This document shows, one piece after another, positions 21,873 through 51,305 of a DNA stretch of 64,000 bases. Below the pieces are notes generated by a model. That model searched no databases. It had not been told where the DNA came from and saw only the letters and a program-made list of their open reading frames with translations. The stretch spans positions 16,768,486 to 16,832,485 of the forward strand of contig NC_080059.1 in NCBI RefSeq assembly GCF_026212465.1, written 5' to 3'. Both the position numbers and the translations under genes were made by a program. Each line of letters begins with the position of its first letter. Position 1 is the first letter of the stretch. Source of the stretch: Amaranthus tricolor (lineage: Eukaryota; Streptophyta; Magnoliopsida; Caryophyllales; Amaranthaceae).

Positions 21873-21887
21873 GACTTATTGTAACAG

Positions 21888-21905: not shown

Positions 21906-21908
21906 AAC

Positions 21909-22543
21909 TGTTTCGGTAATGAAACGAGGAAGTGCGAAAGATACTCAAAATACCTAAAGATTAGTGGAAGTGTGATTAAGAGAAGCAATTTGTGGGAGGA
22001 AGTGGCTGGAATTCCTGCAAAACAACTTGTTAGCCTTGTCCGGGGGGTGATCTCCCGGAAAACCCCTCCGACGCTCAAGTTAGAACGTGGATATCGGAAA
22101 TAAATGAATGAACGATTATATAATGAATGCAAGAAGAGATGTCGGGATTAAGATTGCTAGTGTTTGGGTAGGTTAATGAAGCAGGGTGAGAGCAATGATA
22201 TTACAAAGGCTATGTTTTTTCTGGTCTTTCCTTCTTGATGGCTGCCCATATTTATAATGATGGAAAGGAAGTTGTAGAAGAAGTGAACTATCATGGGAGT
22301 AGTGGGAGTAATGGGAAGAGTGGGCAGTTACTTATCTTGAAACAAGGAGAGCCATGCATTGTGGGAGAGTGGGGAGTTATGGTTTTTCAGAGGTAACTGG
22401 CCCATGGGCCATTCAAGGAAGATGGGACTTCCAGAAAAAGCCCATTGACCGAAAGTCAAGGTCAACGGAAAAGGTCAAAGGGTATTTCGGTAATATGATG
22501 CTATTTATCAAATAAATTAATTAAAAAAAACAGTACCATGACA
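21909..22543 (-). repeat. gypsy 5' LTR (right)
   Basis: This is the partner of 9729-10363, followed by the second GTACT copy. On the minus strand it is the promoter LTR for gag-pol. The short translations seen inside both LTRs have no gene signature and are not annotated as genes. Confidence 0.95.
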
Positions 22544-24696: not shown

Positions 24697-24928
24697 GGCG
24701 GATCCAGGATTCTAAAGCATGGGTAGCACCATTCATGATTCACCAACGTGTTGAAATAAATTACAGTCGAGAGTTTTGTTTATAAAATGAGCATTCCAAA
24801 AATATTTCATTGCACCAAATTACAAGTTACAATTTACAATGAGATTAAAGTCTAACATAGTGAAATACAAGATAATAACAAAATATAAAACTACAATTGT
24901 TCTCTTCGAGTTCTCATATTTTGATATC

Positions 24929-26429: not shown

Positions 26430-26444
26430 AATTCCCCCTTTTTG
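26430..26444 (-). other. copia polypurine tract next to the 3' LTR
   Basis: The minus strand reads CAAAAAGGGGGAATT immediately before the 3' LTR start. A similar AAAAGGGGGAATA lies upstream at about 27087-27099, consistent with the duplicated tracts known in Sireviruses. Confidence 0.75.
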
Positions 26445-27680
26445 ATGATGACAAACTTTTAAACAAACTTAAAATAAAATTAGAGTAAAATCAATATTAT
26501 AGAGCATGTCAGAGATTAAAACAACTCTACATAACTTAGTAAATTAACTCGTTACAATATAATTTACCAAGCAATCATAGCAACACAGTTTACTCCATAT
26601 AGTATAAAAACACAATATAAAATATATGTTTTTAAATAGTTTCCAAAAATAGTTAACATAAATCACTAAGTATTTCAAATGTAATAACTTTGAAATCAGA
26701 ACAATTATTCATATAGTCAGAGCATATATCTTATATTCCTATCAACAGAACATTCAAAACAATTATTAGAACAGTTCATCATCAGAGTCATCAGAGCAAC
26801 AGTTCATCAAGTAACTTCTATTATCAGAGCAATATAAATCAATCTTGATCATAAGTATCAGAGCATTAAGCATTAACAAAAGGTGTTAACTATATACTGA
26901 CAATAGATTAACTATACTTTGACAATCAGAGCAAAATCAGCAAGCAATAAACAAGCAATAAACAATCATCAGCAGAATACAGCCAAACAGCCTTAGATCA
27001 TGAATCATAACCTTAGTCCTAAAGTCCAACATAATAGATATTATCAGAGCTAAGCATACTCAAGCATTATTTAAGTTTGTGTCAAATATTCCCCCTTTTG
27101 ACATCATTCAAAAAGAATTGGAGCAATCAAACCACAGCACTACGCATATAGACATAGTCAAAGAGAGAATAAGGATGCACAAAGTAAAAAGCAATAACAA
27201 TGAATGCAAACAAGATCAGCTATGATTAATCGTCACAGATAGTTAGTAGCATAAAGGAAAATGTAGGTCATAGTATGAATTAATACAAACAGTACCCCAG
27301 CTGGTACAAAACAAAAGCAAGAAAAGATTGTTTGATAATAGTGATGGTTGCAACAATTAAGAAAATATGATGATTATCAGGAGAAATTAAGATGCAGGAG
27401 CTTCATCATCTATGTATTTTGTTTCCACCTCCACTGTGTCAAGCTTGGCCCCCAAACGTGCTTCCATTTGGTCCATTTGAGCAGATAGTGAAGCTATAGA
27501 AACACGAACATCTTTAAAAACAAGGAAGCTCGTCTGCAATTCTGTGAGTTTTAGGAGAATGGAGGATAGAGGGGCTGTAGGAACTGTAGTGTCACCTAAA
27601 CCTTGATTTTGTGATGTGTGTACTGGTGGTGGTGATGATGGTATAGGTGACTGTGGTGGTGAAGATGGTTGTATTGGTGA
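26445..27680. other. copia 3' untranslated region
   Basis: This is AT-rich, non-coding sequence between the extra ORF and the 3' LTR. It contains many CAGAGCA/ATCAGAGC words and the second polypurine-like tract at about 27087-27099. No ORF is supported. Confidence 0.6.
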
Positions 27681-28950
27681 CTATGTGGCAGGTTTAGGTG
27701 AGGAAGGATGGCTTGGTTCAGCTGTTGTGTATGAGGCTGAGTCATCATCAATAATAACAACAGGTTTCTTTCCTTTGGAAGCTAGCCTACGACTCTTCCT
27801 AAGGTTTGAACCAGGTAAGGAACTCTCCTCATCTTTTTCTTCTTCTTCCTCCACAGCATCCTTCACAGGTTCCTTCTCAACTTCCCCCTTACAAGAATTT
27901 TCCTCCTGTTCCTCCTCAGAATGCTCCTCTGCCTTCTCAGTGGCACAGGGAACAGGCTCCTGTTCCTCCTTGTTTACTTCCTCCTCCTCAATATTTTCTT
28001 CAACTTCTTCTTCTTCATCGGTGTCCTCTGATTGTTCAAAAATGTTCTCAAGGGTCCCATTTTTAGTTAATCTTAGATGTAAATTTTTCAAACATTTTAC
28101 ACCCACTTTGTTGTTTGGACCCATGGGATAGTTTGGACCATCAAGAGGAACACCCAATTTCTTAAATATCCAGGTCAACAGTCCACCATATCCTAACACA
28201 TTCCTTTTAAAAATACAATCATTTAAATGACAAATCATTAAAGAAGGAAAATTAATCTTGATGTGGTTCGCCAGACAGTAGATCAACGTAGCATCCCTCA
28301 AACTAACCTCACTTCTTTTAGATGTGCGAGGCAAAATAAATCGTCTTGCTATATTGTATAACAACTTGTGCATAGGTAACAGCACATTGTGACTAACCTT
28401 TCCTCTTTTTTCTTTCAACCCTAAAAACTTCCAAACTGTGTTCTCATTTATACCAGAAAAATCAATTTTTGACCCAACAATGTAAACATCAAATCCAGTG
28501 GAGGGAACACCTAACCATCCTCCTAAAATCAAACTATTAAATTCAATTTTAATCCCCTTAACAACACTAGTACAAACGCCATGGTCAAAAGAAAAATTTT
28601 GAAACAAACTCGCGCATCAAGTTGGGGTTCATTGGGTTGCAACAGTGTTCTGCCATTAAAGATTCCCAACATTGATTTTGCAAAATGGCGTGAAATTGAG
28701 GAAAGAAATTAGATTCATACCATTGTTTGTCTAGCCCGAAACCAACAATCATTTCTTTGGATATCTCCTCAGCACTAATTGGAACAACAACTTTTGCCCT
28801 TTTTTAAGATGATTTCTTTACTGTAGAGTCCCTCTCTCTCTTTTTGGTTTCATGCACTCCAGAGGCAACCGGGGTTTCCTGTTGCTTTCTTGATGAGAAC
28901 TCAGTTTCGGTAATGAGAGGTGTTGGATGGATGATTTGTAGAGGTTTGGG
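27681..28950 (-). pseudogene. env-position extra ORF of the Sirevirus-like element
   Basis: It lies between RNase H and the 3' LTR on the sense strand, where Sireviruses carry an 'env-like' ORF of unknown function. The best frame (28607-27681, 308 codons counted from a TTG) has a globular part with GIKIEFNSLILGGWLGVP and LRDATLIYCLANHIKINFP, as in the 'putative plant transposon protein' family. This is followed by an extremely acidic Glu-rich tail and a basic NLRKSRRLASKGKK stretch. The N-terminal part (LDKQWYESNFFPQFHAIL and upstream) is in another frame up to about 28950, with a stop (28805-28807) and a frame change near 28600. No signal peptide or membrane segment is evident, so a true envelope role is not supported. 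Confidence 0.7.
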
Positions 28951-32341: not shown

Positions 32342-32445
32342 AGCAATAGGGAGTACAGGATCGATAGAGAAAATAATTTAATAATTTTGTGGATATAAAT
32401 CTTATTATATAATTGATAATAATAAGATAAGTAAAGAAAGTTAGA

Positions 32446-32871
32446 TTTATTTGAGATAAGACTTAAATAAAAGAAAATTACAGGATGCTCTCATCTTAGA
32501 GCTAGACACTTAATTTATACACAAAGGAAGAGATAAGGTGCAATCTGCTCTTCCAATAAGAAAGTAAAGAGAAAAAGTAAATAGTACAAACATAATTATT
32601 AAAGTTACACTATAATATTGTAGAAGATGCTTTGAATTACTATTGAAGATGCTTTACTGTTGAAGATGCTTTGAATCACTGTTGGAGATGCTTTACTATT
32701 GAAGATGCTCTGAATTAATGTTGGAGATGCTTTTGATTTCGTCATTGTTTACGTTTGTGCTTCCGGATGAATTAATTTGAGTTGTTGAACATTTGAATGA
32801 TACTTTTGATTTCGTCATTGCCTACGTTTGTGCTTCCGGATGAATTAATTTGAGTTGTTGAACATTTGAAT
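32446..32871 (-). promoter_or_regulatory. viral promoter/leader region, left copy, pointing left into copia copy A
   Basis: Mirror image of 42395-42820. It contains tandem units with TGACG words (about 32745-32871), GAAGATGCTTT-type short repeats and a minus-strand TATAAA at 32514-32519. If active it would transcribe the minus strand, which is the sense direction of the copia pol copy A. Confidence 0.6.
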
Positions 32872-32892
32872 TGAACTTTTGTGAACTCAATA

Positions 32893-34197
32893 TTAAAAGT
32901 CATATGGATCTTGAGCAAATGGGCCACCAAATGTTGGATCATAAGACTCATTTGAAAACTCCGATAAAATCTCATCAGAGGATTCTTCTGATAATATTTT
33001 CTTTGCATATTGTGGATCTTCAAGAATCTTTTTGAGAATAGCTTTCTGGACTTTAGATAATGATTCTGAATTTGGACTTTCTACTTTGGGGTTTTTATTG
33101 TGTTGAGGAGAGTTTGAATTTGATGTTGCTTTTGAGGGTGAAGGTTTGTTGGTGGTTGATGGAGATTGGTATTCCATTTTCATACCGGTTTGAAAAAAGG
33201 AGATAACATTTTTTGTTGAACAAATTTCTAAGGTAAATTTGTCCCACCATTTAATTTTGAATTCTCTTATTAACGAATATGGATATGGACGTGGAAGGTG
33301 TTGTTTGAGACAGTAACTCCAACATAGAATCCATGGAATTTTAAATTCTGCATGAAACATGACTGGAGTTTCATAAGCTTGATAATTTGAATTGGCAACA
33401 AAAGTTGTGAAACCCTCATTGCATTCTTTTGGATAAATTTGAGGAGTTGGTCCAAATAAATACCACCAATGATAAAACCACATAGGATATTTCTTTGGAC
33501 AATATTTGTCAAATATAAAAAACCATGAATGATCAAATGGTCTGAATAAAAATGCTCTATACCAGGCCATTTTGTAATCATAGTATGAGTAATTTTGAGG
33601 GAAAAATCTTTTTGAAAAAATTCGTTCTGCATAAGGGTCTCCCCATTCTACAGAAGAAATAATTTTCTTAAAAATACATTTTGAATAAATTATTTTTTCT
33701 GAAGAATCCTTGATATGTTGGATTTCAACAGAGTTTGAATCTACTAAAATAAATTCATAAAACCTTTGAGTTTTAAAACGATTTTCTGGTATCCATTCGC
33801 AACCTTTTGGAAAAGTTTTTTGATTGATTGAATTAATAATTTGTGGGCTTTGAGGAATTGTAAAATTAGTGAGATATACATTTTCTATTTCGGTTTTTGT
33901 AATGTATGCAGATTTGGTAAAGCTTTGTGTTGGTATTTTTGTAGTTGGTTCTTTTTGTTTTGAATTTGGAATAATATTTTGTGAAGTAGGCTCTTGAACA
34001 ATTTGTGAATATGGAAGTGGGGGAAAATCATTTAGTTGAGTAAATTTGTTTGAAATGGATAGGGTAGTTTGAAGATTTTTGGAGGATGAAAATTTATTTT
34101 GTTCTGTTTTGTTTGGTTTTGGATCTGGTTCCATTTCGTAATCATCTGAACTCTGGAACCCTTTGAGTTTTTCTTGCTGATTCTTCTTCCTTGGCAT
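32893..34197 (-). CDS. endogenous caulimovirid ORF2, left copy
   Basis: An open 434-codon frame on the minus strand, near-identical to 41069-42373. The N-terminal third is rich in Asn, Lys, Ser and Gln. The middle is aromatic, with YDYKMAWYRAF, FRPFDHSWFFIFDKY and MWFYHWWYLFGPTP. The Ser-rich tail ends in an acidic stretch (LSEESSDEILSEF). I do not recognise a catalytic motif. The position after RNase H and the ~50-kDa size fit the ORF2 of unknown function described for florendoviruses. It overlaps the RNase H end by about 56 bp. It has stayed open although neighbouring viral frames are broken. Confidence 0.75.
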   Translation of the reverse strand: MPRKKNQQEKLKGFQSSDDYEMEPDPKPNKTEQNKFSSSKNLQTTLSISNKFTQLNDFPPLPYSQIVQEPTSQNIIPNSKQKEPTTKIPTQSFTKSAYITKTEIENVYLTNFTIPQSPQIINSINQKTFPKGCEWIPENRFKTQRFYEFILVDSNSVEIQHIKDSSEKIIYSKCIFKKIISSVEWGDPYAERIFSKRFFPQNYSYYDYKMAWYRAFLFRPFDHSWFFIFDKYCPKKYPMWFYHWWYLFGPTPQIYPKECNEGFTTFVANSNYQAYETPVMFHAEFKIPWILCWSYCLKQHLPRPYPYSLIREFKIKWWDKFTLEICSTKNVISFFQTGMKMEYQSPSTTNKPSPSKATSNSNSPQHNKNPKVESPNSESLSKVQKAILKKILEDPQYAKKILSEESSDEILSEFSNESYDPTFGGPFAQDPYDF

Positions 34198-37132
34198 TAT
34201 GATGTCCCTGTAGAAATTCTCTGGTTAAGAAATCAGGGAGAGAGTTACTTTCGCCTCTTATATGCTCTATTTGAAAATCAAATACTGATAAAATTGCTTG
34301 CCATCTTGCAAAAATTTGTTTAGAAACAATGTTTTTGACATCCTTTTCTAGAACCTCTTTTGCAAATTTGCAGTCGATCCTTATCAAAATTTTTTTGTTG
34401 TAAAGATCATCTTGAAATTTTGAAACGCATAGTACTATAGATAAAATTTCTTTTTTAATGGTAGAATAATTTTTTTGAGGTCCGAGCCAGAGACCTGAAT
34501 GAAATCTAACTAATTGTTCTTTTGTATCTATTCTTTGTTTTAATATGCCACCATATCCTATTTCTGATGCATCTGTTTCTACTATCATGAATGCAGATGG
34601 ATCTGGAATGCCTAGACATAGAAGTGATTTGATTTTTTATTTTAATTCAATAATAGTCTTAGTATGAATTTCTGACCAGGGAGGCGGATTTTTTTGAAGT
34701 CTTTGAAAGAGGGGCATGCAAATTTGTCTGAGCTTTGGGAAAAAATCTGATATATAATTTAGACATCCCAAAAATCTTTGTAACTGGGTTTTGTCTTTAA
34801 TTTCGTTAGGGAATTGTTCTGCAAATTCTAAAGACCTTGTAATTGGCTTGATTGTTCATTTATAAATGTCATGTCCCAAAAATCTAATTTTTGTTTGAAA
34901 TAATTTCATTTTAGTGGCAGAAACTACTAAACCATTTTTTTCAACAGTGTTTAGAAATATATGTAAATGTTTGAAATGTTGATCAATATCATGAGAAAAA
35001 ATTAAAACATCATCTATATAAACAATTATGAATGAAGAAAATTGATTGAAAATATCATTCATTATATGTTGAAATTCAGAAGGAGCATTTTTAAGTCCAA
35101 AAGGCATTACATTCCACTCATAATGTCCAAATGGTACCGTGAATGCAGTTTTATATCTATCTTCTTTAGCAATTTGTATTTGCCAGAAACCAGATTTCAT
35201 ATCAAATTTTGAAAATATTTTGGCTTTATATAAGCGATTAATTAAATCTCTTTTATTTGGGATTGGATATCTTATCCATTGAAGAACTTTGTTTAAAGGT
35301 TTGTAATTAATAACTAATCTAGGAACTCCTCTTTCTTTTTCTGCTGCATTCATAACATAAAATGCTGCACAGCTCCAAGGAGATTTGGATGGAGTTATTA
35401 ATTTTTTATCTAAAAGAGTTTGAATTTCTTTCTTGCAGAATTCAAGATGCTTAGAATTCATTTGGATGGGTCTAGCTTTTGTAGGAATATTTTTTTCAGA
35501 GAAATCCTTTTCATATGGCAATGTGACAATATGCCTTTTTCTATCCCAAAAGGCATTTGGAATATCAGCACAAACTTTTGATTTAAAAATATTTTCTAAA
35601 TTAAAAATTTTTTGTTGCAATTTTGATTGTTGTAATTGTTCTTCAATCCTTTGAAAAGAAATTTCTTCTTTTAAAGAGGAAATTTGAAATTCTTTTTGTT
35701 TTATTAAATTTATACTTTGTATTACTGAAGAATTTTGTTATAAATTAATATCTTTTTGTAACATGGGACTTAAAAAAGGAAATGATAATTGTTTCCCTAA
35801 AATTTTTGTATGAACACCTTTGTCATCAACCCAAAAAGGATAAATTTGTGTTAAAAAGGGAGTACCTAATATTATTTCTTCCTTAATATCATTAATAATA
35901 ATGAAAGTATTAGTAAAACTATAATTTTCATTTATGATCTTCCCTTTTGAAATTTTATATTTAATATCCATGGGTGAACTATTTGCACTATATAACCGAG
36001 TTTTTGTTTTTTCATAAAATTTGGTTGGGACTAATCCTTCCCTTAAGCAATTTTGATCCGCTCCACTATCAATTAAAGCAATATAGGTTTTTTGAAAATC
36101 TTCAATTTGAAAAGTAACTGGTGCGTACCATTTTTGAAAATTAATTTTATTAATAACGGTGATAAAATCATCATCATCCCCATTAACTTTCTCTTTTCCC
36201 AAAGAAAGATTTTCTTTATAGATGGGGTTTTCTAAAATAGATAATTTTGTTTCAAGTTCGAAATCTTTGATTTCTAAATGCTTTAAACTATTTTTGATAG
36301 AAATGATGTCTTCTTTGATTTTATTTATTTCAAGTTGAAGATCTTTGACCGAAAGAGTTTGATTCTTAATAGGAATTAATTTAGAAGTCATTTCTTTGGA
36401 AGAGTATTTTTCTAATAATTTTGAAATATTGAAAGGTTCAATTTGAGGAAGTGGAATACTTTCTTTGTTTTTAGAGGTAGAGGTTTCACCCAAAACCATA
36501 GTTTTGAGTTTCAAAAGGGTTTCTCTTTTGATCTCATTATCTTGGATTTTGTCAACGAGATCAAAAAGAAATTCCACATTTTTCTCTTTATCTGTTAAAA
36601 CATTAATGCATTTGATAGGAGAGGAAGAAATCGAAGATTCAGAATCAGAAGTTTGATCATTAATTTGTAAAATTTCGTCATCTTCCTTTTCTGAAGAAGA
36701 AGAAGAAGAAGTAGACTCAGGAGTTTGTAATAATATTTTGGATATTTTATCTCCTAGCTCAGAGTCGTTAATAAATAATTCTTGAATCTTTTTCTTTGTG
36801 GTACAAGCATTTGCTTTATGCCCAGGTTTTCCACACGAATAACAAAAGATTTTGAAAGCTTTGTTTGATTTTCGGAAATTTCCGAAATTTTCTTTCCTCG
36901 TTTCTTTCGATAATAAGAAGGATAAGAATTTTTATTTTTATGTTTTGAAAATTTAGAAAATTGTTTTTTAATTTTCTTTTTTGTAGAGGGAGCTCTAATA
37001 GCTTCCATACCAAATGCTTCACAGAAACATCCAATTTCTTTCCTAGATTGTTTCTTTTCAGAGGTATATTTGGCTTGGAGTTTGAGTTCTTCACATAAAG
37101 AAAGACCTTCCTTTTTAATGAAAGCGAATAGT
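34142..37132 (-). pseudogene. endogenous caulimovirid polyprotein, left copy (capsid end to RNase H), decayed
   Basis: Fragments on the minus strand: capsid end and basic region to 37132, with a one-base deletion near 36880 that moves the CCHC knuckle out of frame; a protease frame 36577-35738 with LIDSGADQN, closed by a stop that the right copy lacks (about 35738); an RT frame 35620-34856 with YIDDVLIFS; and an RNase H frame 34588-34142 with ETDASEIGYGG. Stops at 34856-34858 (end of the RT frame) and about 34637 are also present in the right copy, so they predate the duplication. The protein cannot be made in one piece from this copy. Confidence 0.88.
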
Positions 37133-37143
37133 AAGATTTTCTT

Positions 37144-40100
37144 TTGGAATTTCCCATGTTACAAAAAGATATTAATTTATTACAAAATTCTTCAGTAATA
37201 CAAAGTATAAATTTAATAAAACAAAAAGAATTTCAAATTTCCTCTTTAAAAGAAGAAATTTCTTTTCAAAGGATTGAAGAACAATTAGATAAAATTCAAA
37301 AATGTTTACAAAAATTAGCAGATAGTCCAAGTCATATTAAGGTTTTGAGTAAATATCAAAGTTCAGAGATATCTTCTGATGAAGAAAATTTTCAGTCTTT
37401 AATCATTTCAAAAGTTGCAAAGCAATTTCAAGAATCTGATAATGATCCTCATCAAATTAATAAAATTCGATCATCTTGGAAGAATATCCCTACAAAAAAC
37501 TATTATCCTAGACCTACTCCTGTTGATCTTCAATATGAGGAAAGGTCTACATTTACCTCCAAATCCTTTTCCCCAGATATGATCCATGAATGGAACATAG
37601 ATGGAAAATCTGATTATGAAATTCTTAATACTCTTCAAAATATGGGAATGGCTATTGTAGCTTACAAGGCAAAACCTTTGGATGAACAAATAATTTTTGG
37701 TTTTATTATATCAGGTTTTACTGGGCAATTAAAAAACTGGTGGGATAATCTTCTCACTTTACAAGACAAATTAGAAATTTTGAATCACGTTACTGACATC
37801 ATGGATGATCAAGGAAATGTATTTCAAAAATCTGACTGCTGTGATTTCTTAATCATAGTTATTGCCTTTCATTTTGTCGGTAACCCTACTCAAACTCTTT
37901 CTTCTGGAGAAACGATTTTACAAAATTTACGTTGCCCAACTTTAAGTGACTATAGATGGTATAAAGATACCTTCTTTAGTTATGTTTTACAAAGACAAGA
38001 TTGCAATCAAAGTTTTTGGAAAGAAAAATTTATATCAGGACTACCAAAATTATTTGCTCAAAGAATTTTTAGAAAAATAGCTGAACATGATACAGATAAA
38101 GAACAAGCTCTTAATAATACTACTTATGGAGGACTATTCGCTTTCATTAAAAAGGAAGGTCTTTCTTTATGTGAAGAACTCAAACTCCAAGCCAAATATA
38201 CCTCTGAAAAGAAACAATCTAGGAAAGAAATTGGATGTTTCTGTGAAGCATTTGGTATGGAAGCTATTAGAGCTCCCTCTACAAAAAAGAAAATTAAAAA
38301 ACAATTTTCTAAATTTTCAAAACATAAATATAAAAATTCTTATCCTTCTTATTATCGAAAGAAACGAGGAAAGAAAATTTTCGGAAATTTCCGAAAATCA
38401 AACAAAGCTTTCAAAATCTTTTGTTATTCGTGTGGAAAACCTGGGCATAAAGCAAATGCTTGTACCACAAAGAAAAAGATTCAAGAATTATTTATTAACG
38501 ACTCTGAGCTAGGAGATAAAATATTCAAAATATTATTACAAACTCCTGAGTCTACTTCTTCTTCTTCTTCTTCAGAAAAGGAAGATGACGAAATTTTACA
38601 AATTAATGATCAAACTTCTGATTCTGAATCTTCGATTTCTTCCTCTCCTATCAAATGCATTAATGTTTTAACAGATAAAGAGAAAAATGTGGAATTTCTT
38701 TTTGATCTCGTTGACAAAATCCAAGATAAAGAGATCAAAAGAGAAACCCTTTTGAAACTCAAAACTATGGTTTTGGGTGAAACCTCTACCTCTAAAAACA
38801 AAGAAAGTATTCCAATTCCTCAAATTGAACCTTTCAATATTTCAAAATTATTAGAAAAAGACTCTTCCAAAGAAATGACTTCTAAATTAATTCCTAATAA
38901 GAATCAAACTCTTTCGGTCAAAGATCTTCAACTTGAAATAAATAAAATCAAAGAAGACATCATTTCTATCAAAAATAGTTTAAAGCATTTAGAAATCAAA
39001 GATTTCGAACTTGAAACAAAATTATCTATTTTAGAAAACCCCATCTATAAAGAAAATCTTTCTTTGGGAAAAGAGAAAGTTAATGGGGATGATGATGATT
39101 TTATCACCGTTATTAATAAAATTAATTTTCAAAAATGGTACGCACCAGTTACTTTTCAAATTGGAGATTTTCAAAAAACCTATATTGCTTTAATTGATAG
39201 TGGAGCGGATCAAAATTGCTTAAGGGAAGGATTAGTCCCAACCAAATTTTATGAAAAAACAAAAACTCGGTTATATAGTGCAAATAGTTCACCCATGGAT
39301 ATTAAATATAAAATTTCAAAAGGGAAGATCATAAATGAAAATTATAGTTTTACTAATACTTTCATTATTATTAATGATATTAAGGAAGAAATAATATTAG
39401 GTACTCCCTTTTTAACACAAATTTATCCTTTTTGGGTTGATGACAAAGGTGTTCATACAAAAATTTTAGGGAAACAATTATCATTTCCTTTTTTAAGTCC
39501 CATGTTACAAAAAGATATTAATTTATTACAAAATTCTTCAGTAATACAAAGTATAAATTTAATAAAACAAAAAGAATTTCAAATTTCCTCTTTAAAAGAA
39601 GAAATTTCTTTTCAAAGGATTGAAGAACAATTACAACAATCAAAATTGCAACAAAAAATTTTTAATTTAGAAAATATTTTTAAATCAAAAGTTTGTGCTG
39701 ATATTCCAAATGCCTTTTGGGATAGAAAAAGGCATATTGTCACATTGCCATATGAAAAGGATTTCTCTGAAAAAAATATTCCTACAAAAGCTAGACCCAT
39801 CCAAATGAATTCTGAGCATCTTGAATTCTGCAAGAAAGAAATTCAAACTCTTTTAGATAAAAAATTAATAATTCCATCCAAATCTCCTTGGAGCTGTGCA
39901 GCATTTTATGTTATGAATGCAGCAGAAAAAGAAAGAGGAGTTCCTAGATTAGTTATTAATTACAAACCTTTAAACAAAGTTCTTCAATGGATAAGATATC
40001 CAATCCCAAATAAAAGAGATTTAATTAATCGCTTATATAAAGCCAAAATATTTTCAAAATTTGAAATGAAATCTGGTTTCTGGCAAATACAAATTGCTAA

Positions 40101-40410
40101 AGAAGATAGGTATAAAACTGCATTCACGGTACCATTTGGACATTATGAGTGGAATGTAATGCCTTTTGGACTTAAAAATGCTCCTTCTGAATTTCAACAT
40201 ATAATGAATGATATTTTCAATCAATTTTCTTCATTCATAATTGTTTATATAGATGATGTTTTAATTTTTTCTCATGATATTGATCAACATTTCAAACATT
40301 TACATATATTTCTAAACACTGTTGAAAAAAATGGTTTAGTAGTTTCTGCCACTAAAATGAAATTATTTCAAACAAAAATTAGATTTTTGGGACATGACAT
40401 TTATAAATGA
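37144..40410 (+). CDS. endogenous caulimovirid polyprotein, right copy (capsid-protease-RT), open for 1088 codons
   Basis: The frame is uninterrupted from 37144 to a TGA at 40408. The first ~48 codons are a misplaced 136-bp piece (37152-37287) identical to the protease-RT linker at 39498-39633. Then follow the capsid region (about residues 49-400, with YKDTFFSYVL and FWKEKFISGLPKLFAQR), a basic stretch, a CX2CX4HX4C knuckle (CYSCGKPGHKANAC, about 427-440), an acidic Ser-rich linker, the protease (DSGAD, about 685) and RT with YIDD (about 1035). RNase H is beyond the TGA. The start is artificial because it falls in the rearranged junction; the natural N-terminus (movement protein) is missing. 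Family assignment is firm, genus less so. Confidence 0.85.
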   Translation: MEFPMLQKDINLLQNSSVIQSINLIKQKEFQISSLKEEISFQRIEEQLDKIQKCLQKLADSPSHIKVLSKYQSSEISSDEENFQSLIISKVAKQFQESDNDPHQINKIRSSWKNIPTKNYYPRPTPVDLQYEERSTFTSKSFSPDMIHEWNIDGKSDYEILNTLQNMGMAIVAYKAKPLDEQIIFGFIISGFTGQLKNWWDNLLTLQDKLEILNHVTDIMDDQGNVFQKSDCCDFLIIVIAFHFVGNPTQTLSSGETILQNLRCPTLSDYRWYKDTFFSYVLQRQDCNQSFWKEKFISGLPKLFAQRIFRKIAEHDTDKEQALNNTTYGGLFAFIKKEGLSLCEELKLQAKYTSEKKQSRKEIGCFCEAFGMEAIRAPSTKKKIKKQFSKFSKHKYKNSYPSYYRKKRGKKIFGNFRKSNKAFKIFCYSCGKPGHKANACTTKKKIQELFINDSELGDKIFKILLQTPESTSSSSSSEKEDDEILQINDQTSDSESSISSSPIKCINVLTDKEKNVEFLFDLVDKIQDKEIKRETLLKLKTMVLGETSTSKNKESIPIPQIEPFNISKLLEKDSSKEMTSKLIPNKNQTLSVKDLQLEINKIKEDIISIKNSLKHLEIKDFELETKLSILENPIYKENLSLGKEKVNGDDDDFITVINKINFQKWYAPVTFQIGDFQKTYIALIDSGADQNCLREGLVPTKFYEKTKTRLYSANSSPMDIKYKISKGKIINENYSFTNTFIIINDIKEEIILGTPFLTQIYPFWVDDKGVHTKILGKQLSFPFLSPMLQKDINLLQNSSVIQSINLIKQKEFQISSLKEEISFQRIEEQLQQSKLQQKIFNLENIFKSKVCADIPNAFWDRKRHIVTLPYEKDFSEKNIPTKARPIQMNSEHLEFCKKEIQTLLDKKLIIPSKSPWSCAAFYVMNAAEKERGVPRLVINYKPLNKVLQWIRYPIPNKRDLINRLYKAKIFSKFEMKSGFWQIQIAKEDRYKTAFTVPFGHYEWNVMPFGLKNAPSEFQHIMNDIFNQFSSFIIVYIDDVLIFSHDIDQHFKHLHIFLNTVEKNGLVVSATKMKLFQTKIRFLGHDIYK

Positions 40411-41124
40411 ACAATCAAGCCAATTACAAGGTCTTTAGAATTTGCAGAACAATTCCCTAACGAAATTAAAGACAAAACCCAGTTACAAAGATTTTTGGGA
40501 TGTCTAAATTATATATCAGATTTTTTCCCAAAGCTCAGACAAATTTGCATGCCCCTCTTTCAAAGACTTCAAAAAAATCCGCCTCCCTGGTCAGAAATTC
40601 ATACTAAGACTATTATTGAATTAAAATAAAAAATCAAATCACTTCTATGTCTAGGCATTCCAGATCCATCTGCATTCATGATAGTAGAAACAGATGCATC
40701 AGAAATAGGATATGGTGGCATATTAAAACAAAGAATAGATACAAAAGAACAATTAGTTAGATTTCATTCAAGTCTCTGGCTCGGACCTCAAAAAAATTAT
40801 TCTACCATTAAAAAAGAAATTTTATCTATAGTACTATGCGTTTCAAAATTTCAAGATGATCTTTACAACAAAAAAATTTTGATAAGGATCGACTGCAAAT
40901 TTGCAAAAGAGGTTCTAGAAAAGGATGTCAAAAACATTGTTTCTAAACAAATTTTTGCAAGATGGCAAGCAATTTTATCAGTATTTGATTTTCAAATAGA
41001 GCATATAAGAGGCGAAAGTAACTCTCTCCCTGATTTCTTAACCAGAGAATTTCTACAGGGACATCATAATGCCAAGGAAGAAGAATCAGCAAGAAAAACT
41101 CAAAGGGTTCCAGAGTTCAGATGA
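40411..41124 (+). pseudogene. endogenous caulimovirid RT end and RNase H, right copy, cut by stops
   Basis: The reading continues past the TGA at 40408 with RFLGCLNYISDFFPKLRQ, meets a TAA at 40627-40629, and resumes as a 148-codon frame (40678-41124) with ETDASEIGYGGILK and IRGESNSLPDFLTREF, typical RNase H start and end motifs. Both stops also occur in the left copy. The frame ends within the start of ORF2, which overlaps it by 56 bp. Confidence 0.88.
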
Positions 41125-42373
41125 TTACGAAATGGAACCAGATCCAAAACCAAACAAAACAGAACAAAATAAATTTTCATCCTCCAAAAATCTTCAAACT
41201 ACCCTATCCATTTCAAACAAATTTACTCAACTAAATGATTTTCCCCCACTTCCATATTCACAAATTGTTCAAGAGCCTACTTCACAAAATATTATTCCAA
41301 ATTCAAAACAAAAAGAACCAACTACAAAAATACCAACACAAAGCTTTACCAAATCTGCATACATTACAAAAACCGAAATAGAAAATGTATATCTCACTAA
41401 TTTTACAATTCCTCAAAGCCCACAAATTATTAATTCAATCAATCAAAAAACTTTTCCAAAAGGTTGCGAATGGATACCAGAAAATCGTTTTAAAACTCAA
41501 AGGTTTTATGAATTTATTTTAGTAGATTCAAACTCTGTTGAAATCCAACATATCAAGGATTCTTCAGAAAAAATAATTTATTCAAAATGTATTTTTAAGA
41601 AAATTATTTCTTCTGTAGAATGGGGAGACCCTTATGCAGAACGAATTTTTTCAAAAAGATTTTTCCCTCAAAATTACTCATACTATGATTACAAAATGGC
41701 CTGGTATAGAGCATTTTTATTCAGACCATTTGATCATTCATGGTTTTTTATATTTGACAAATATTGTCCAAAGAAATATCCTATGTGGTTTTATCATTGG
41801 TGGTATTTATTTGGACCAACTCCTCAAATTTATCCAAAAGAATGCAATGAGGGTTTCACAACTTTTGTTGCCAATTCAAATTATCAAGCTTATGAAACTC
41901 CAGTCATGTTTCATGCAGAATTTAAAATTCCATGGATTCTATGTTGGAGTTACTGTCTCAAACAACACCTTCCACGTCCATATCCATATTCGTTAATAAG
42001 AGAATTCAAAATTAAATGGTGGGACAAATTTACCTTAGAAATTTGTTCAACAAAAAATGTTATCTCCTTTTTTCAAACCGGTATGAAAATGGAATACCAA
42101 TCTCCATCAACCACCAACAAACCTTCACCCTCAAAAGCAACATCAAATTCAAACTCTCCTCAACACAATAAAAACCCCAAAGTAGAAAGTCCAAATTCAG
42201 AATCATTATCTAAAGTCCAGAAAGCTATTCTCAAAAAGATTCTTGAAGATCCACAATATGCAAAGAAAATATTATCAGAAGAATCCTCTGATGAGATTTT
42301 ATCGGAGTTTTCAAATGAGTCTTATGATCCAACATTTGGTGGCCCATTTGCTCAAGATCCATATGACTTTTAA
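41069..42373 (+). CDS. endogenous caulimovirid ORF2, right copy
   Basis: A 434-codon open frame starting MPRKKNQQEK inside the RNase H end. It matches the left copy almost residue for residue, including the aromatic core (FRPFDHSWFFIFDKY, WFYHWWYLFGPTP) and the acidic tail. There is no known catalytic motif. A role as a viral accessory protein is inferred only from position and from the presence of a comparable ORF2 in florendoviruses. It is followed directly by the tandem repeats of the viral non-coding region. Confidence 0.75.
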   Translation: MPRKKNQQEKLKGFQSSDDYEMEPDPKPNKTEQNKFSSSKNLQTTLSISNKFTQLNDFPPLPYSQIVQEPTSQNIIPNSKQKEPTTKIPTQSFTKSAYITKTEIENVYLTNFTIPQSPQIINSINQKTFPKGCEWIPENRFKTQRFYEFILVDSNSVEIQHIKDSSEKIIYSKCIFKKIISSVEWGDPYAERIFSKRFFPQNYSYYDYKMAWYRAFLFRPFDHSWFFIFDKYCPKKYPMWFYHWWYLFGPTPQIYPKECNEGFTTFVANSNYQAYETPVMFHAEFKIPWILCWSYCLKQHLPRPYPYSLIREFKIKWWDKFTLEICSTKNVISFFQTGMKMEYQSPSTTNKPSPSKATSNSNSPQHNKNPKVESPNSESLSKVQKAILKKILEDPQYAKKILSEESSDEILSEFSNESYDPTFGGPFAQDPYDF

Positions 42374-42394
42374 TATTGAGTTCACAAAAGTTCA

Positions 42395-42820
42395 ATTCAA
42401 ATGTTCAACAACTCAAATTAATTCATCCGGAAGCACAAACGTAAGCAATGACGAAATCAAAAGTATCATTCAAATGTTCAACAACTCAAATTAATTCATC
42501 CGGAAGCACAAACGTAAGCAATGACGAAATCAAAAGCATCTCCAACATTAATTCAAAGCATCTTCAACAGTAAAGCATCTCCAACAGTGATTCAAAGCAT
42601 CTTCAACAGTAAAGCATCTTCAATAGTAATTCAAAGCATCTTCTACAATATTATAGTGTAAATTTAATAATTATGTTTGTACTATTTACTTTTTCTCTTT
42701 AGTTTCTTATTGGAAGAGCAGATTGCACCTTATCTCTTCCTTTGTGTATAAATTAAGTGTCTAGCTCTAAGATGAGAGCATCCTGTAATTTTCTTTTATT
42801 TAAGTCTTATCTCAAATAAA
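42395..42820 (+). promoter_or_regulatory. viral promoter/leader region, right copy, pointing right into copia copy B
   Basis: A 73-bp unit is tandemly duplicated (42395 and 42468), each copy with AAGCAATGACGAAATC, a TGACG word of the kind found in caulimovirid enhancers. A run of CAAAGCATCTTCAACAG-type short repeats follows. TATAAA is at 42747-42752 and AATAAA at about 42815-42820, so transcript start and poly-A signal lie close together as in pararetroviruses. Transcription would run rightwards, antisense to copia copy B. Confidence 0.7.
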
Positions 42821-42919
42821 TCTAACTTTCTTTACTTATCTTATTATTATCAATTATATAATAAGATTTATATCCACAAAATTATTAAATTATTTTCTCT
42901 ATCGATCCTGTACTCCCTA

Positions 42920-45900
42920 AGTTTCGGTAATGAGAGGTGTTGGATGGATGATTTGTAGAGGTTTGGGTTGCTTAATCTTTGGTGTTTGGTTCTTGGTTTT
43001 CATGGTGGTTTGGAGAATTGATGGAGCGAGATTTTGCAGGAAATGTGAGAGGATGAAGATGATTTTGGGATTCAGAGTTGATTGCGTTTGAGGATGAAAG
43101 GTTTAGGGCTTGGCGTGTGAGAGTGTATAAAATGAATGTGAGGGGACGTGTGTTTAGGTGATTCATGTTCCTTATTTAATTCGCGCACATGAACACAAAA
43201 TGTGAAATGGAAACAGACGAATTTAGTGAAGAACTATGATGATTTAACTCCCGCTATTTTAATAGAAATTGCTGGGTAAATATATATATTAAATATTATG
43301 AAATTTTTATGAAAATGAAAAATAAATGAAGGTTTTATGCTACTATAATCTGAACAAATCAAACAAGCAATCATATGAGCATTCACAGTATATACTTTTA
43401 AATGGTGCGTACCTGATCCTTTCGATAATCGATTTTTCAATCAAGATTTTGTGGTTGATCGACCTTTTCAATTTTCATTCTGACTTTAAGGATCACATAT
43501 GTCACTCACTTCAATGCAGCTTTATCATGCCAAGTTCCAATCTCATTTTTTCATGTTGTTCCCTTGGAAGTGGTTTAGTCATGATATCTGCTATTTGCTC
43601 GTTGGAGTTTACATGCTTTAAAATAATATTTTTATTTTCAACATGATCCTTAAGAAAATGATGCCTAATGTGGATGTGTTTTACTCGTGAATGATGCACT
43701 GGATCTTTAGATATGCATATGGCACTGGTATTATTACAATAAATAAGAACACATTCAAACTTAATACCAAAATCTCTTAGCTGCTGTTTTATCCAAAGCA
43801 TTTGGGAACAGCAAGCTGCTGCTGCTACGTATTCAGCTTCGGTAGTGGATAATGCAATAGTGTTTTGTTATTTTGAACACCATGACACTAAACATGAGCC
43901 AAGAAATTGTACCATACCTGACGTACTTTTTCTATTAACTAGATCACCTGCATAATCTGCATCACTAAAACCTTTTAAATCATAAACATCACTTTTAGGA
44001 TAAAATAAGGACAAGTCTTCTGTTCCCTTCAAGTATCTCAAAATTCGTTTTACTGCTGTGAGATGTGATTCTTTGGGGTTGGACTGAAATCTAGCACAAA
44101 AACCAACACTAAAAGAAATATCGGGTCTTCTAGCAGTTAGATATAACAAAGAACCAATCATGCCTCGATACATGGTTTGATCAATAGTTGTTCCATTTGG
44201 GTCTTCATCTAATCTAACACTTGTAGCCATAGGTGTATGGTTGGTTTTAGCATTGTTTAGTCCATATTTCTTAAGAAGTTCTTTGATGTATTTTTGTTGA
44301 TGAATAAAAATACCATTTTCAGTTGGTTTAATTTGCAACCCAAGGAAGAAGTTTAGTTCTCCCATCATACTCATTTCAAATTCATTGCTCATTAGGTTAG
44401 CAAATCCTTTACATAGCAATTCATTCGTGGCTCCAAAAATAATATCATCAACATATATTTGAACAACTAGAATATCAGAACCTTTATTTTTAAAGAATAA
44501 GGTTTTATCAATTTTACCTCTAACAAAGTCATTTTGGATTAAAAACTTTGATAGTCTTTCATACCATTGCTTTGGAGCTTGTTTCAAGCCATAGAGAGCT
44601 TTATCAAGCTTGTAGACATGATCAAGACATGAGGTATTTTCAAAGCCTGGTGGTTGTTCAACAAAAACTTCTTCATCAAGAAAACCATTTAAGAAAGCAC
44701 ATTTCACGTCCATTTGATATAATTTAAAATTCATGAAAGCAGCAAAAGAAATTAAAATTCTAATAGCCTCTAACCTTGCTACCGGAGCAAATGTCTCGGT
44801 GTAATCAATACCTTCTTGTTGATTGTATCCTTTGACCACGAGCCTTGATTTGTTTCTAACAATTATTCCATGCTCATCTAGTTTATTCCGAAATACCCAT
44901 TTCAAACCAATTACCTTTTTGTGTTTCGGTTTGGGTTCCATGTGCCATACTTTATTTCTTTCAAATTCATTTAATTCATCTTGCATGGCTACAACCCATT
45001 CGGAATCCTTTAGAGCTTCTTCATGATTCTTGGGCTCGAGTGATGATAGGAACGCAAAGTGTGCACAAAAGTTTCTCATTTGAGATCTAGTTTGTGTTCC
45101 TTTATTCAAATCACTTATAATCAAATCAAGAGGATGATAACTTTGATATTTTCAAGGTTTGGGCACAAATTCTCTTGTGGGAACAGTAGCATGTTCTGGT
45201 TCATCAGCTTGATTGACATTCTGTTCAGCTACTGGATCAACTTGCTCGTCTGTGGGAACAGCTGTATTGGGAACAGTCTGCTGGTCCCGTTGAACTGGCA
45301 GTTCCAGATTATGATCAGGCCTTTCTGCTTCTTCTGGAAACGGCTGTTCACTTGCTGTTCCTTGATCTTGCACTTTCAATTCTTCATCATCGTGTTCTAG
45401 ATTTGTAAGACCTATCTTATAATTATTTGTATCCTGTTCACTTGACAAAAAGTTAGTTTCATCGACAATTATGTGAACGGACTCTTCCACACTCATTGTT
45501 CTTTTGTTATAAACTCTGTAAGCCTTACTATGTGATGAGTAGCCAAGAAATACTGCTTCATCACTTCTTTCATCAAATTTACCTATATTTCGTTTTCCAT
45601 TCACATGAACAAAACATTTACATCCAAACACACGAAAATAGGAAATATTTGGTTTAACACCTTTAAGCAATTCATAAGGTGTCTTAGAAGTGATTGGTCT
45701 TATTAACACTCGATTCAAAATGTAACATGCAGTATTAACAGCCTCGGCCCAAAAATTTCTAGGTAAACCACTAGCGATTAATATGGTTCTAGCCATTTCC
45801 TCTAAAGTTCTATTTTTCCTTTCTACTACACCATTTTGTTGTGGTGTTCGTGGTGCCGAAAAATTATGACTTAGTCCATGCTCATTGCAATAATTCATGA

Positions 45901-46374
45901 AACTTGAATTTTCGAATTCTCTACCATGATCTGACCTTATGTGAATAATTTGATTATTGGTAGATTTTTGTATTTTGTTAGCGAAAGAAACAAACTCATT
46001 AAAAGCTTCATCTTTACTAACTAAAAATAAAGTCCATGTAAATCTACTATAATTATCAACAATAACAAACACATATCTTTTGCCACTACGGCTTTGTGTT
46101 CTCATAGGTCCACATAGATCCATATGTAATAATTCAAGTGGTTTAGAGGTGGTCACAACATTCTTTGGTTTAAAAGATGACCTAACTTGTTTTCCTTTGG
46201 CACAAGGATCACAAATTTCATCCCTAAGGAATTTTATAGCTGGTAGTCCTCTAACTAGGTCTTTTGATCTTAATGTATTAATCAATGTATAACTAGCATG
46301 ACCTAGACGCTTATGCCAAAGAAGTGGGTCGTCTTCTATAACGCTTAGAGACGTTAGACTGGTTTTGGGAACAG
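42920..46374 (-). repeat. copia pol duplication, copy B (direct repeat of 28903-32341)
   Basis: Same orientation as copy A and nearly identical, 3.46 kb. Copy B is continuous with gag, protease and the 5' LTR on its right. Its left end (AGTTTCGG at 42920) abuts the viral right arm. Confidence 0.92.
43511..45124 (-). pseudogene. copia reverse transcriptase-RNase H, copy B
   Basis: Frame 45124-43868 has RT motifs identical to copy A ([29 protein letters not shown]) and [16 protein letters not shown]. It is closed by a TAA within RNase H (43868, after SWCSK) that copy A lacks. The C-terminus continues at 43801-43511 (HIRHHFLKDHVE, MTKPLPREQHEK). The 17 bases missing from copy A are present here, so this copy has the ancestral frame except for the stop. 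Confidence 0.9.
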
Positions 46375-46387
46375 TGTCCAGGTCCAC
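45152..46387 (-). pseudogene. copia integrase, copy B
   Basis: A 411-codon frame with the pre-integrase H..H (WHKRLGHASY), CDPCAKGKQ, and the D-D-E core in LLHMDLCGPM, HIRSDHGREFEN and PQQNGVVERKNRTLEE. It ends at the same stop as copy A (45152), followed by the RT frame. It is joined upstream to protease with a frame change near 46388-46470. The integrase core looks complete, but no continuous gag-pol reading exists. Confidence 0.9.
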
Positions 46388-46442
46388 AACATAAGTGTTC
46401 CCTTTTCTGATTCCCTCAAGAACGGTGTCTCCTGTGTCATTC

Positions 46443-46730
46443 CTAGAAATAATGCACCCTTTTTGAAGTAAAGTTCATAGAGTTACCTTTAACGCAAAAT
46501 TGAGAAATGCTTAGTAAGTTATGTTTCAAATCCTCGACTAAAAATATATTATCTATAGCATGGGAACATGACCTTCCAACTTTTCCTTTGGCTATTATCT
46601 CACCCTTCATATTGTCACCGAAGGTTACTGTTCCCCCATCATAGGCTTCAAGTGAGAGAAATTTAAATTTGTCACCCGTCATGTGCTTGGAACACCCACT
46701 GTCGAGATACCATGAGCTGTTCCCCCTCAC
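46443..46730 (-). pseudogene. copia protease
   Basis: The minus strand has SSWYLDSGCSKHMTGDKFKF with the DSG active-site triad, followed by GGTVTFGDNMKGEIIAKGKV and LKHNLLSISQFC, typical of the copia aspartic protease before GAG-pre-integrase. The frame closes at 46443; the next domain is in another frame. Only one copy exists, since the duplicated segment begins downstream of it. Confidence 0.85.
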
Positions 46731-46739
46731 TTGGACCTG

Positions 46740-47668
46740 AAAAAAAATAATTGTTAGTTACAGGATCCCATGCTGTCTTGGGTTCCTTGTCGATTTTACA
46801 AAAATCTGTTTTCTTCGTCCAAACATTATCGACATAATTTCTGTTAGAGACAGTGTACTGTTCCCTTTTGGTGCACTGGTCCTTCAGATGGCCAGTTCCT
46901 CCACAGAAGGAACAGATTCTGTCACTAGGGAGATCAACGTAAGCTTTCTTCTTCTTGTTATTCTTAAAGTAATTTAGGCCTATTGAATTTTTACTTTTGG
47001 CATCTTAAATCCATTTGGGAGTAATTTTGATTTTCCCTTTTTCTCTTGAATTTAATTCAAGTTTATCATTATTGTTACAATTAGGTTCTAGATTCAACTT
47101 TAAATTTTGAAAATCATTGCACATATCTTTAGTAGATGCATCATTCAATTCTTTATTCAAGCCTAATAATTTCTATTGCGACGACTCAATATCAAGAATA
47201 ACATTTTCCTTTTTAATTCTCTCTATATTTTCCTTTAGAATTATATTTTGGTCCAACAAATCGAAAAATCTGTTTTGGACATCGTATCTAAAGGTGTTTA
47301 TATAGAAGACATGGTCTTTGCTTACCTTGAGTTCCTTTTCTAATTGGAGACACTTAACATTACAACTTTCAAGTTTAGCTTGTGTCTCCTTTAGCAACTC
47401 TAATAATTTATTTTTACTAAATTTGGATGGATGAAAATAAAATGAGTTAGAAATATATACCTGTTGCGGGTTTGAGAACAATTTCATTGTTGGAGTTAGT
47501 AGTGGTTACCTCAAAATCTCCAATTTCGATTACTCTCCAAACTTGATAATTTTCCGCTTTGATAAAGATCTCCATCCTATTTTTCCATTATGTATAGAAT
47601 TTTCAATCGAACATGGGTGGTCTTTGAGTAGAATACCCTTCTTCCATTCGCTCGTTCATAATTGACAT
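46740..47668 (-). pseudogene. copia gag with internal deletion
   Basis: The start ATG at 47668 lies about 55 bp after the primer site. The N-terminus (MEEGYSTQRPPMFD) meets a stop, then the expected WKNRMEIFIKAENYQVWRVI reads on. After about 80 codons the reading jumps to a coiled-coil-like stretch (NKLLELLKETQAKLESCNVK, 47420-47173) and then the CCHC knuckle CSFCGGTGHLKDQC (about 46871-46914). The large central gag (UBN2-type) domain that normally lies between is absent. The element's own gag is therefore non-functional. Confidence 0.8.
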
Positions 47669-47722
47669 TTTCGGAAACACCAGGATTCTGCCCTCAGGGT
47701 TTCCTGATCTACTGGGAACAGG

Positions 47723-47734
47723 GCTCTGATACCA
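47723..47734 (-). other. copia primer-binding site (initiator tRNA-Met type)
   Basis: The minus strand reads TGGTATCAGAGC two bases inside the 5' LTR. This is the standard initiator-Met primer site of copia elements and it fixes the orientation. Confidence 0.92.
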
Positions 47735-47736
47735 AT

Positions 47737-49238
47737 TGTAGACTCAATTAGGAACGGGAACAACAACAAGAGGGGGGGTGAATTGTTGTTGTTACTAGTT
47801 TAAGCGTTTTTGCCCTGTTTTTGCGGAATTGAATTAAATAAATAAAGCTTAAACTTAGAGCGAAATAATTAAAAGAGACAAACGATTTTTACGTGGAAAC
47901 CTTCTAGGCCTAAATAGAAGGAAAAACCACGACCCCTCGGGATTTCTAAATTCTCCACTATGTTTAAGGCAACTCGTTACAATTACATTAAACATCTTAC
48001 TTCACTCGAAGCGCATCAACTAGGCCAACTCTTCTCTCTCAAATTGCTTCACTCAAAGCAACAAACTTAGCTTCACTAAAAGCTAATTCTCACCACTAGC
48101 TTCACTAGAAGCTTTCTCCTTAGCTTTACTCAAAGCTAATCTCTTCTCTAGCTTCATTAAAAGCTATCTATTTTCCCCCTTAGACTCACCCGAGTCTAAT
48201 TACAAATTCTCTCAAAAACCCTTACAAAGGATAAAAATTCTCTAAAAATAAAATCAATGAGTTGCACAAGAAAATATTATAAATTAATTGGCATTTTTAA
48301 AACAAAATTTTCTTGTAAAAATTCTCCCATAATTACGTATGATTTAATGGCTCATACTAAGGCAAGTTTTTATGAATAACCGAGTCTCTTATTTATAGAG
48401 CTAAAATCCCTAAGAATAAGGAATATTCCAATCCATTATTCCCTATCAAAAGATCATGGGAGTAATGTGGATTTTAATAACCAAGTCTTCCTACGGTTAA
48501 TCTTAAAAATAGGCATTTAAAGTTGACCAATTCAAGCCCACGGTTATTTAGCAATAACCGTTGTTCCCTAATAATAGGTTCTGTTCCCTTTAAGGCAGCA
48601 GTTTTACAAACAGCTGTTCTTGTTCCAGTACTAATTGCTGGAACGTGTTTGCTATAAATAGAAACGGTTATACTGATTGGGAATGATTACTTGCTAACTT
48701 TTAGGAATAAAGACGGTTTAGAATGATAGCTAAGACCCATTCAACAACCACTATGTCTATTTTTAGCAAATCCAAAATTTACTAAATATAGATCCTAAAA
48801 TAAAGGATCTTTATTTAGAGGCTCATACGTAAAGTAATTTTAAGAAAACTTTTTGCCAATTAATTATAATAATTAATAAATGCAACAAATTAACTTTATT
48901 TAATACATTAACTAAAAATAATAATTATAAATAAATAACCAGAATTTCCAGTTAACGTAGGCTGACTGCAGTTCAGGAACAGTGCGCTGTTTCCAGAATC
49001 CAGTTTTGCTAGAACATCCAACTTAGGAACAGTAGACCTGCTGTCTCCATTTTACATCCCAAGCGATATACTTCTTCTAACATCCCTTGAATTCTTTTGA
49101 CACGTGCATTCCCATGAACTATGAACTAAGCCATAGGTACTATCAACGATCACAATTAATCGGATATCGACCTGCACACAAACTCTAAACACATATTTGC
49201 TTAAGTGTAGTCATCATCAAAACTCAAGAGGTCCAACA
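47737..49238 (-). repeat. copia 5' LTR (right)
   Basis: This is the partner of 24929-26429, with ATATC following it. A minus-strand TATAAAT (about 48392-48398) is a likely promoter element for the element's own transcript. Confidence 0.95.
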
Positions 49239-49243
49239 ATATC

Positions 49244-51003: not shown

Positions 51004-51305
51004 TTAAAGTTCGCCATCCTTTTCATTTTATCGCCACCCCCTAATGAAATTACTAGTTTGCCCCTACACTTGTAAAAATTATAAAATTGCCATTGTACCT
51101 AAAACATGCTTAACAATTCTAAATTGCACTTAATAACACTAGTATCACTTAATAACCATATTATCGGAACTCTATATATGTTGAATTTTCAGAAACGTTC
51201 TTGTAGTATATACGAATTCAAAAAACGCACTATCTTTCTAAGACTTCCTAAAAACGAATTTAAACACGTTAAGGTAAATAAGCTAGAACTCAACATCGAA
51301 CAACA

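Follow-up and report, generated by a model that had tools for sequence, protein, structure and literature searches.

The DNA of the Caulimoviridae comes without an integrase. A 2023 review terms its path into plant chromosomes speculative and names break repair and retrotransposon chimeras as the candidate routes (PMC10377300). In rice, the endogenous pararetrovirus (EPRV) ERTBV is described as ending at discontinuities left by reverse transcription (Kunii et al. 2004, PMC526188), and for endogenous banana streak GF virus, which is flanked by Ty3/Gypsy, a chimera between the virus and a long terminal repeat (LTR) retrotransposon has been proposed (Gayral et al., as related in PMC10377300). The complex LTR elements of cereals that are ascribed to template switching are flanked by a target-site duplication (TSD) and have outer LTRs that resemble each other (Sabot and Schulman 2007, PMC1950507). 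In tomato, rearranged endogenous caulimovirids with inverted repeats are reported to carry dense 22-nt small RNA (Valli et al. 2023, cited through PMC10377300), and the same review lists EPRV inverted repeats as small-RNA sources in tomato and soybean. Here we analyzed 64,000 nucleotides of Amaranthus tricolor DNA (NC_080059.1, positions 16,768,486 to 16,832,485 of the forward strand; hereafter the window, numbered from its first letter), in which a palindrome of an endogenous caulimovirid lies inside one complete Ty1/copia retrotransposon that carries its pol segment on both sides of the virus.

This locus resembles each of these systems in part. As in the banana streak GF case a virus is joined to an LTR retrotransposon, but the element is a copia and not a Gypsy, and LTRs, TSD and a direct pol repeat frame a viral palindrome. 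As in the cereal complexes there is a TSD on both sides and the outer LTRs match, whereas no internal LTR is present and the foreign part is a virus, and inverted. The viral ends, like those of ERTBV, lie at reverse-transcription discontinuities, with the difference that both ends of one palindrome lie at the same primer site. With the tomato areas of small interfering RNA (siRNA; Valli, Gonzalo-Magro and Sanchez 2023) the locus shares an endogenous caulimovirid, inverted repeats and the proposal of a 22-nt siRNA source; in contrast to them, its repeat sits inside a complete copia with a duplicated pol and is known from sequence alone. In titles and the openings of abstracts, which covered few subscription papers and were not searched for the exact wording, we found no viral palindrome framed by repeated pol in one complete copia, and we make no claim to a first report. 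The locus holds traces bearing on both break repair and retrotransposon chimera in one young structure with datable repeats. Since its bases distinguish it from the other copies compared, the questions of capture and silencing can be addressed in accessions and in small-RNA reads.

Self-comparison of the window placed two mutually inverted viral arms at 32347-37132 (arm B, minus strand) and 38133-42919 (arm B', plus strand), separated by a loop of 1000 nt. Over 4787 alignment columns the arms are 99.58% identical, with 4767 of 4786 aligned bases matching, 19 substitutions and one 1-nt indel. A preliminary description of this DNA, made from the sequence, had proposed a near-perfect inverted repeat of an endogenous pararetrovirus with arms of about 4785 bp and a 1.0-kb spacer; the arm ends that we obtained agree with it to within 1 nt and the spacer length is confirmed. 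Domain matches upheld the identity of the virus and the arm alignment upheld the hairpin geometry. The contents it had listed, namely capsid end, protease, reverse transcriptase (RT), RNase H and ORF2, are all present (RNase H by position), together with a zinc knuckle. That description did not mention the enclosing copia element, its repeated pol segment, what the loop consists of, or the fact that both outer ends lie at the primer site. Other copies of the virus allowed 18 of the 19 arm substitutions to be polarized, eight of them by a single fetched copy (L070). Eight are private to one arm and ten to the other, which indicates that the arms aged separately; one site stayed unpolarized.

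The palindrome lies within a Ty1/copia element on the minus strand (24929-49238), bounded by the 5-bp TSD ATATC (24924-24928 on the left and 49239-49243 on the right). Its 5' LTR (47737-49238, with a TATA-like TATAAATA at 48390-48397) and 3' LTR (24929-26429) both have TG..CA ends. Beside the 5' LTR is a primer-binding site, TGGTATCAGAGC (47723-47734), which we take to be of the tRNA-Met type, and beside the 3' LTR is the polypurine tract AGGGGGA (26433-26439), a motif found three times in the copia 3' region, the terminal copy included. In the sense of the element, the order is 5' LTR, gag remnant (46375-47736), segment A2 (46374-42919), virus, segment A1 (32341-28903), 3' region X (26430-28902) and 3' LTR, all on the minus strand. 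A is an integrase/RT/RNase H segment of 3.4 kb that is directly repeated on both flanks of the virus: A2 is contiguous with the gag remnant and A1 lies on the side of the 3' LTR. In A2, the domains rve, SH3_retrovirus, gag_pre-integrs and RVT_2 were found in ORFs 43871-45124 and 45155-46387, and RNase H was assigned by position. Integrase precedes RVT_2, as in Ty1/copia elements, in both A copies. Region X contains an ORF that matches PF20167 slightly below the cut-off (42.7 bits, cut-off 45). In L069, the only related element fetched for this stretch, gag is followed without interruption by one A and then by X, and hence A is doubled in the window. L069 is 98.5% identical to the window copia over the last 133 bp of gag and about 93% in A, which hints at mosaic copia elements.

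The LTR search, with 40 of 3162 candidates scored, gave 43 rows, from which three short pieces at C12:20.67 Mb were dropped for the counting of pairs. Among the 40 LTR-sized rows, the 12 other same-strand pairs are spaced 7.6-8.8 kb, and the window pair is 22.8 kb apart. Among the scored matches, each window LTR is most similar to the other (99%); the remaining full-length matches reach 97% at most, and one partial match 98%. The window has just two copies of this LTR, a third inside the element not being found, and no viral sequence was found within 1.5 kb of 28 fetched related LTRs. Membership in the Sirevirus group was considered and rejected: Sireviruses are described as marked by a polypurine-tract octamer AGGGGGAG and an AT/TG attachment site at the 3' LTR (PMC2829016), unlike the window element, which has AGGGGGAATT directly followed by TG at this place.

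At both of its outer ends the palindrome breaks off at the tRNA-Met primer site of the virus itself. The arms end in CTCCCTA, which in other copies is followed by TTGGTATCAGAGCCAG, the tRNA-Met primer site. We compared this position among 30 fetched loci out of 40 scored ORF2 matches (455 candidates), of which 28 lie outside the window. Ten of these 28 run on past CTCCCTA through TTGGTATCAGAGC and further, 11 break at the primer site (-7 to +13), four of them keeping the whole site and ending just after it, and seven break elsewhere, at positions -16 to -308. With both window arms counted, the primer-site breaks come to 13 out of 30. Outside the window, 11 out of 18 breaks lie within 21 of the 1507 nt, where 0.25 would be expected, or 10 out of 17 when distinct junctions are counted (p about 5e-15), p values that serve as a guide only because copies within arrays are related. 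Two loci (L011 and L012) were classed independently of the script, which halted at a repeat there; two others (L031 and L033) were set to +13 and not +19, six matches being ascribed to chance; and eight of the ten run-on loci were classed by sequence common to them after the script stopped at +70. The join on the A1 side, CAGAGC joined to AATAGGGAG, is the same as in another locus (L032) and has a 3-nt CAG overlap with copia; on the A2 side 1 nt is common to virus and copia. Next to arm B the bases 32345-32346 (AA) are also viral and 32342-32344 (AGC) perhaps so. A random 5-nt filler at 32342-32346 (AGCAA) was rejected, as the sequence is that of viral primer-site DNA. The A2-virus junction, the only copia-virus junction searched, occurs once in the 520-Mb genome with up to two mismatches allowed, and thus no second copy of the chimera was seen.

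The loop (37133-38132, read on the plus strand) consists of 19 nt, a copy of a viral linker, and DNA of the coat N-terminus. No convincing source was found for the first 19 nt (37133-37151). The next 136 bp (37152-37287) are an exact second copy of 39498-39633, the linker between protease and RT, and the family coat N-terminal region, contiguous with arm B', matches from 37285. In the search with the spacer, 39 of the 40 scored matches (789 candidates) start at 37285 and the remaining one is the window itself. Templated filler can accompany end joining, and the 136-bp linker copy looks like such filler. A diverged virus strain (92%) as the origin of the loop piece was rejected, with mismatches at the edges only and the 136 bp identical. 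Self-primed snap-back at the loop was not supported either, since no priming overlap was seen by eye in the bases beside the join, and the local fold at the loop is no better than that of shuffled sequences (z 0.34).

The three repeat pairs of the structure have Kimura two-parameter divergences (standard error) of 0.0074 (0.0022) for the LTRs, 0.0047 (0.0012) for A1/A2 and 0.0040 (0.0009) for the arms, and these are indistinguishable (pairwise Fisher p 0.13-0.73). The LTRs differ by 11 substitutions and one 1-nt indel, and A1 and A2 by 16 substitutions and a 16-bp indel. At rates of 2.5e-9 to 1.3e-8 substitutions per site and year, ages would be 0.28-1.5 million years for the LTRs, 0.18-0.9 for A1/A2 and 0.15-0.8 for the arms. 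Most LTR changes are private to one or the other copy. With L069 as the sole outside copy, the A1/A2 substitutions were polarized 5 to 6, five staying unpolarized, and the 16-bp indel is a loss in A1. Over 3.35 kb the arms share nine changes that are absent from the other fetched copies covering this stretch. These nine common changes, with the balanced 8:10 private ones, give both arms a common source; the shared changes may either have been carried by the source variant or reflect exchange of sequence between the arms after insertion.

On the plus strand the loop and arm B' carry, in one open frame (37135-40407), the coat domains PF24925 and PF22909 (within 37576-38205), a zinc knuckle, protease and RT; PF22909, PF00077 and PF00078 all matched in the window. 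The RNase H stretch follows in the same frame as RT after in-frame stops, and was assigned by position. These stops 3' of the open part of the polyprotein are common to both arms, the minus-strand arm has an extra frame break between protease and RT, and in one fetched copy (L013) the RT-RNase H stretch and ORF2 are both open. ORF2 (434 aa; 41069-42373 on the plus strand, and 32893-34197 on the minus strand in the other arm) is in a frame different from that of the polyprotein. It is followed in arm B' by a promoter-like region (42385-42820), mirrored in arm B, with 73-bp and 39-bp repeats, two as-1-like boxes (42439-42453 and 42512-42526), a TATA-like TATAAATTA (42747-42755) and AATAAA (42815-42820), before the arm ends at the primer site. 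With one mismatch allowed to the motif that we take as as-1, the window has four such boxes, two per arm, against 0.04 expected from shuffles; both boxes of arm B have one mismatch each.

The movement protein is not in the window copy; PF01107 (4.1e-21) follows the primer site in a family copy (L026). The virus thus has the coat domain, protease, RT and movement protein that define a member of the Caulimoviridae, the movement protein being taken from L026. Florendoviruses are described as having movement protein, coat with zinc finger, protease, RT and RNase H in one polyprotein, a tRNA-Met site, and an ORF2 of 45-58 kDa in another frame (Geering et al. 2014, PMC4241990). The window virus is like them in domain order, in the ORF2 frame and in its tRNA-Met site, and differs in that this copy is without the movement protein, which was seen only in L026; coat, protease and RT share one frame. 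Order and ORF2 fit a caulimovirid of florendovirus layout, the comparison being one of layout and not of a tree. A protein search with ORF2 found 37 proteins at E<=1e-10, with relatives in Saponaria, Catharanthus, Prunus and Carya, and no relative was confirmed when viral contigs were scanned with pieces of ORF2 and RT. A 7598-bp contig in an archaeal metagenome bin (Candidatus Nitrosocosmicus) encodes a 434-aa protein with 99% identity to ORF2; as this contig is about as long as one viral unit, it is probably misbinned plant or viral DNA.

The virus is abundant in the genome. With 158 occurrences on one strand and 147 on the other, its end motif CTATCGATCCTGTACTCCCTA is present 305 times (none for the reversed control), and among the 40 scored ORF2 copies 38 others have one identical score. 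These copies form 23 neighbor pairs less than 20 kb apart, between which unscored copies may lie: 12 are inverted, the window pair included, and 11 tandem. Seven of the inverted pairs converge and five diverge, the window pair being among the latter. As the motif occurs 305 times and inverted pairs are about as frequent as tandem ones, an inverted arrangement is nothing out of the ordinary in this recent virus family. What is unusual is the capture of a palindrome in a copia with duplication of pol. Genomes that hold many identical EPRV RT sequences are reported, for example those of Capsicum and Lotus (PMC9794742). With these and the EPRV inverted-repeat small RNA already in print, the repeat taken by itself belongs to a known kind. 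At C6:2731829-2731877 and C7:798631-798687, end motifs face each other 7 and 15 nt apart, forming primer-site-to-primer-site palindromes. Arrays of viral coat segments occur at C2:22.56-22.64 Mb, C7:0.64-0.66 and 3.04-3.05 Mb, and C9:7.32-7.36 Mb, with unit spacings near 6.35, 6.54 and 7.53 kb that suggest amplified deletion forms.

We favor, with a confidence slightly above even, an origin in which a tail-to-tail viral pair made from end-joined linear DNA was captured in the copia element, and in which a transcript from the 5' LTR is predicted to fold into a hairpin and to be processed by dicing into siRNA that targets the virus family. Reverse transcription would produce viral DNA molecules that have a free end at the primer site. 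Two of these, from a single viral variant, would then be fused through their broken inner ends, the filler being copied from viral sequence, and the pair would be joined to two copia ends overlapping by 3.4 kb, contributed by sister or homologous copies or by two unintegrated copia DNAs; this overlap would account for the directly repeated A. Both the pathway of joining and the sequence of steps are inferred. Hairpin DNAs of cauliflower mosaic virus are described from infected plants; a literature search for them listed no paper. The promoter-like regions of both arms point outward, away from the loop, so a transcript across the center would have to start either in the copia 5' LTR or outside, and the 5' LTR with its TATA-like motif is the likelier source. 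Its read-through would traverse the loop and might end at the viral AATAAA carried by arm B (32446-32451), which lies near the hairpin end and would be met by such a transcript, giving a self-contained hairpin RNA for Dicer-like enzymes to use. Read-through and dicing are the least certain of these steps. The arms align as an inverted repeat able to form long double-stranded RNA (dsRNA), and by analogy with tomato the silencing role proposed in the preliminary description is plausible. In favor of the end-joining origin are the clustering of breaks at the primer site, the loop filler, the common source of the arms, the similar ages of the three repeat pairs, the single A of L069, the shorter spacing of the other LTR pairs and the single occurrence of the A2-virus junction. 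Several observations weigh against this scenario. The loop join has no microhomology and its 19 nt are unexplained; simple break repair usually gives short duplications, and the 3.4-kb one is far longer; no long open frame remains in the copia gag, and the copia may be methylated and silent. A and the arms together (35/8225) are slightly less diverged than the LTRs (11/1501; p 0.15), which permits one event or a later insertion.

A chimera formed during retrotransposition, with copia reverse transcription jumping to viral nucleic acid and back, A being copied twice and integrase inserting the product in one step, is in our judgment rather unlikely. In its favor, LTRs, primer-binding site and polypurine tract are intact, a perfect TSD surrounds the whole, the three repeat pairs have indistinguishable divergence, and a jump back upstream would by itself account for the repeated A. 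A TSD and matching outer LTRs are also the marks used for template-switch complexes (PMC1950507), and chimeras of retrotransposons and EPRVs have been proposed in print (PMC10377300, PMC8256270, PMC1899175). However, several jumps would be needed, one of them an inversion, the viral ends resemble DNA ends and not RNA positions, and TSD and LTRs would be no different had the virus entered a resident element. Such an entry by one viral copy, with the inverted copy and the A repeat arising from a later replication or repair error, seems improbable to us. It would suit the nine changes common to the arms, as if one resident copy had been doubled, and the arm divergence, which is the lowest of the three pairs; conversion between arms also accounts for the common changes, however, and two outer ends at the same primer site are not predicted unless old ends were used. 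We think it very improbable that the palindrome is a product of the assembly, either false outright or made by collapsing and rejoining copies. Repeats this young and this alike, present hundreds of times, are indeed hard to assemble, but identical arms would be the expected outcome of a fold-back read or a doubled contig, and arms, A copies and LTRs each have private changes on both sides; in addition, the TSD is intact and the A2-virus junction is unique in the genome.

Whichever of these origins applies, we give an even chance to the structure being neutral debris that yields no RNA hairpin and does not act in silencing. Methylation is usual for EPRVs and LTR elements, and other inverted pairs of the same virus exist, so that any effect need not stem from this locus. 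Methylation of LycEPRV is on record (PMC1899175), while the EPRV inverted repeats reported as small-RNA sources in tomato and soybean (PMC10377300) count against inert debris. A more novel reading is a retrotransposon that acts as a memory of the virus, in which the LTR would transcribe the hairpin and the outward viral promoters would give A1 sense and A2 antisense RNA, directing dsRNA against the virus family and against its own copia family. We regard this reading as decidedly improbable; the element does retain the termini required for movement.

Other mobile DNA surrounds the locus. At 9729-22543 the window contains a complete Ty3/Gypsy-type element with LTRs 99.4% identical and an apparent 5-bp duplication GTACT, in which gag and pol are on the minus strand and a Transposase_28 ORF lies inside on the plus strand. 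Beside the copia, at 49742-55309, are other transposon remains with DUF4371, MULE transposase and plant mobile domain ORFs.

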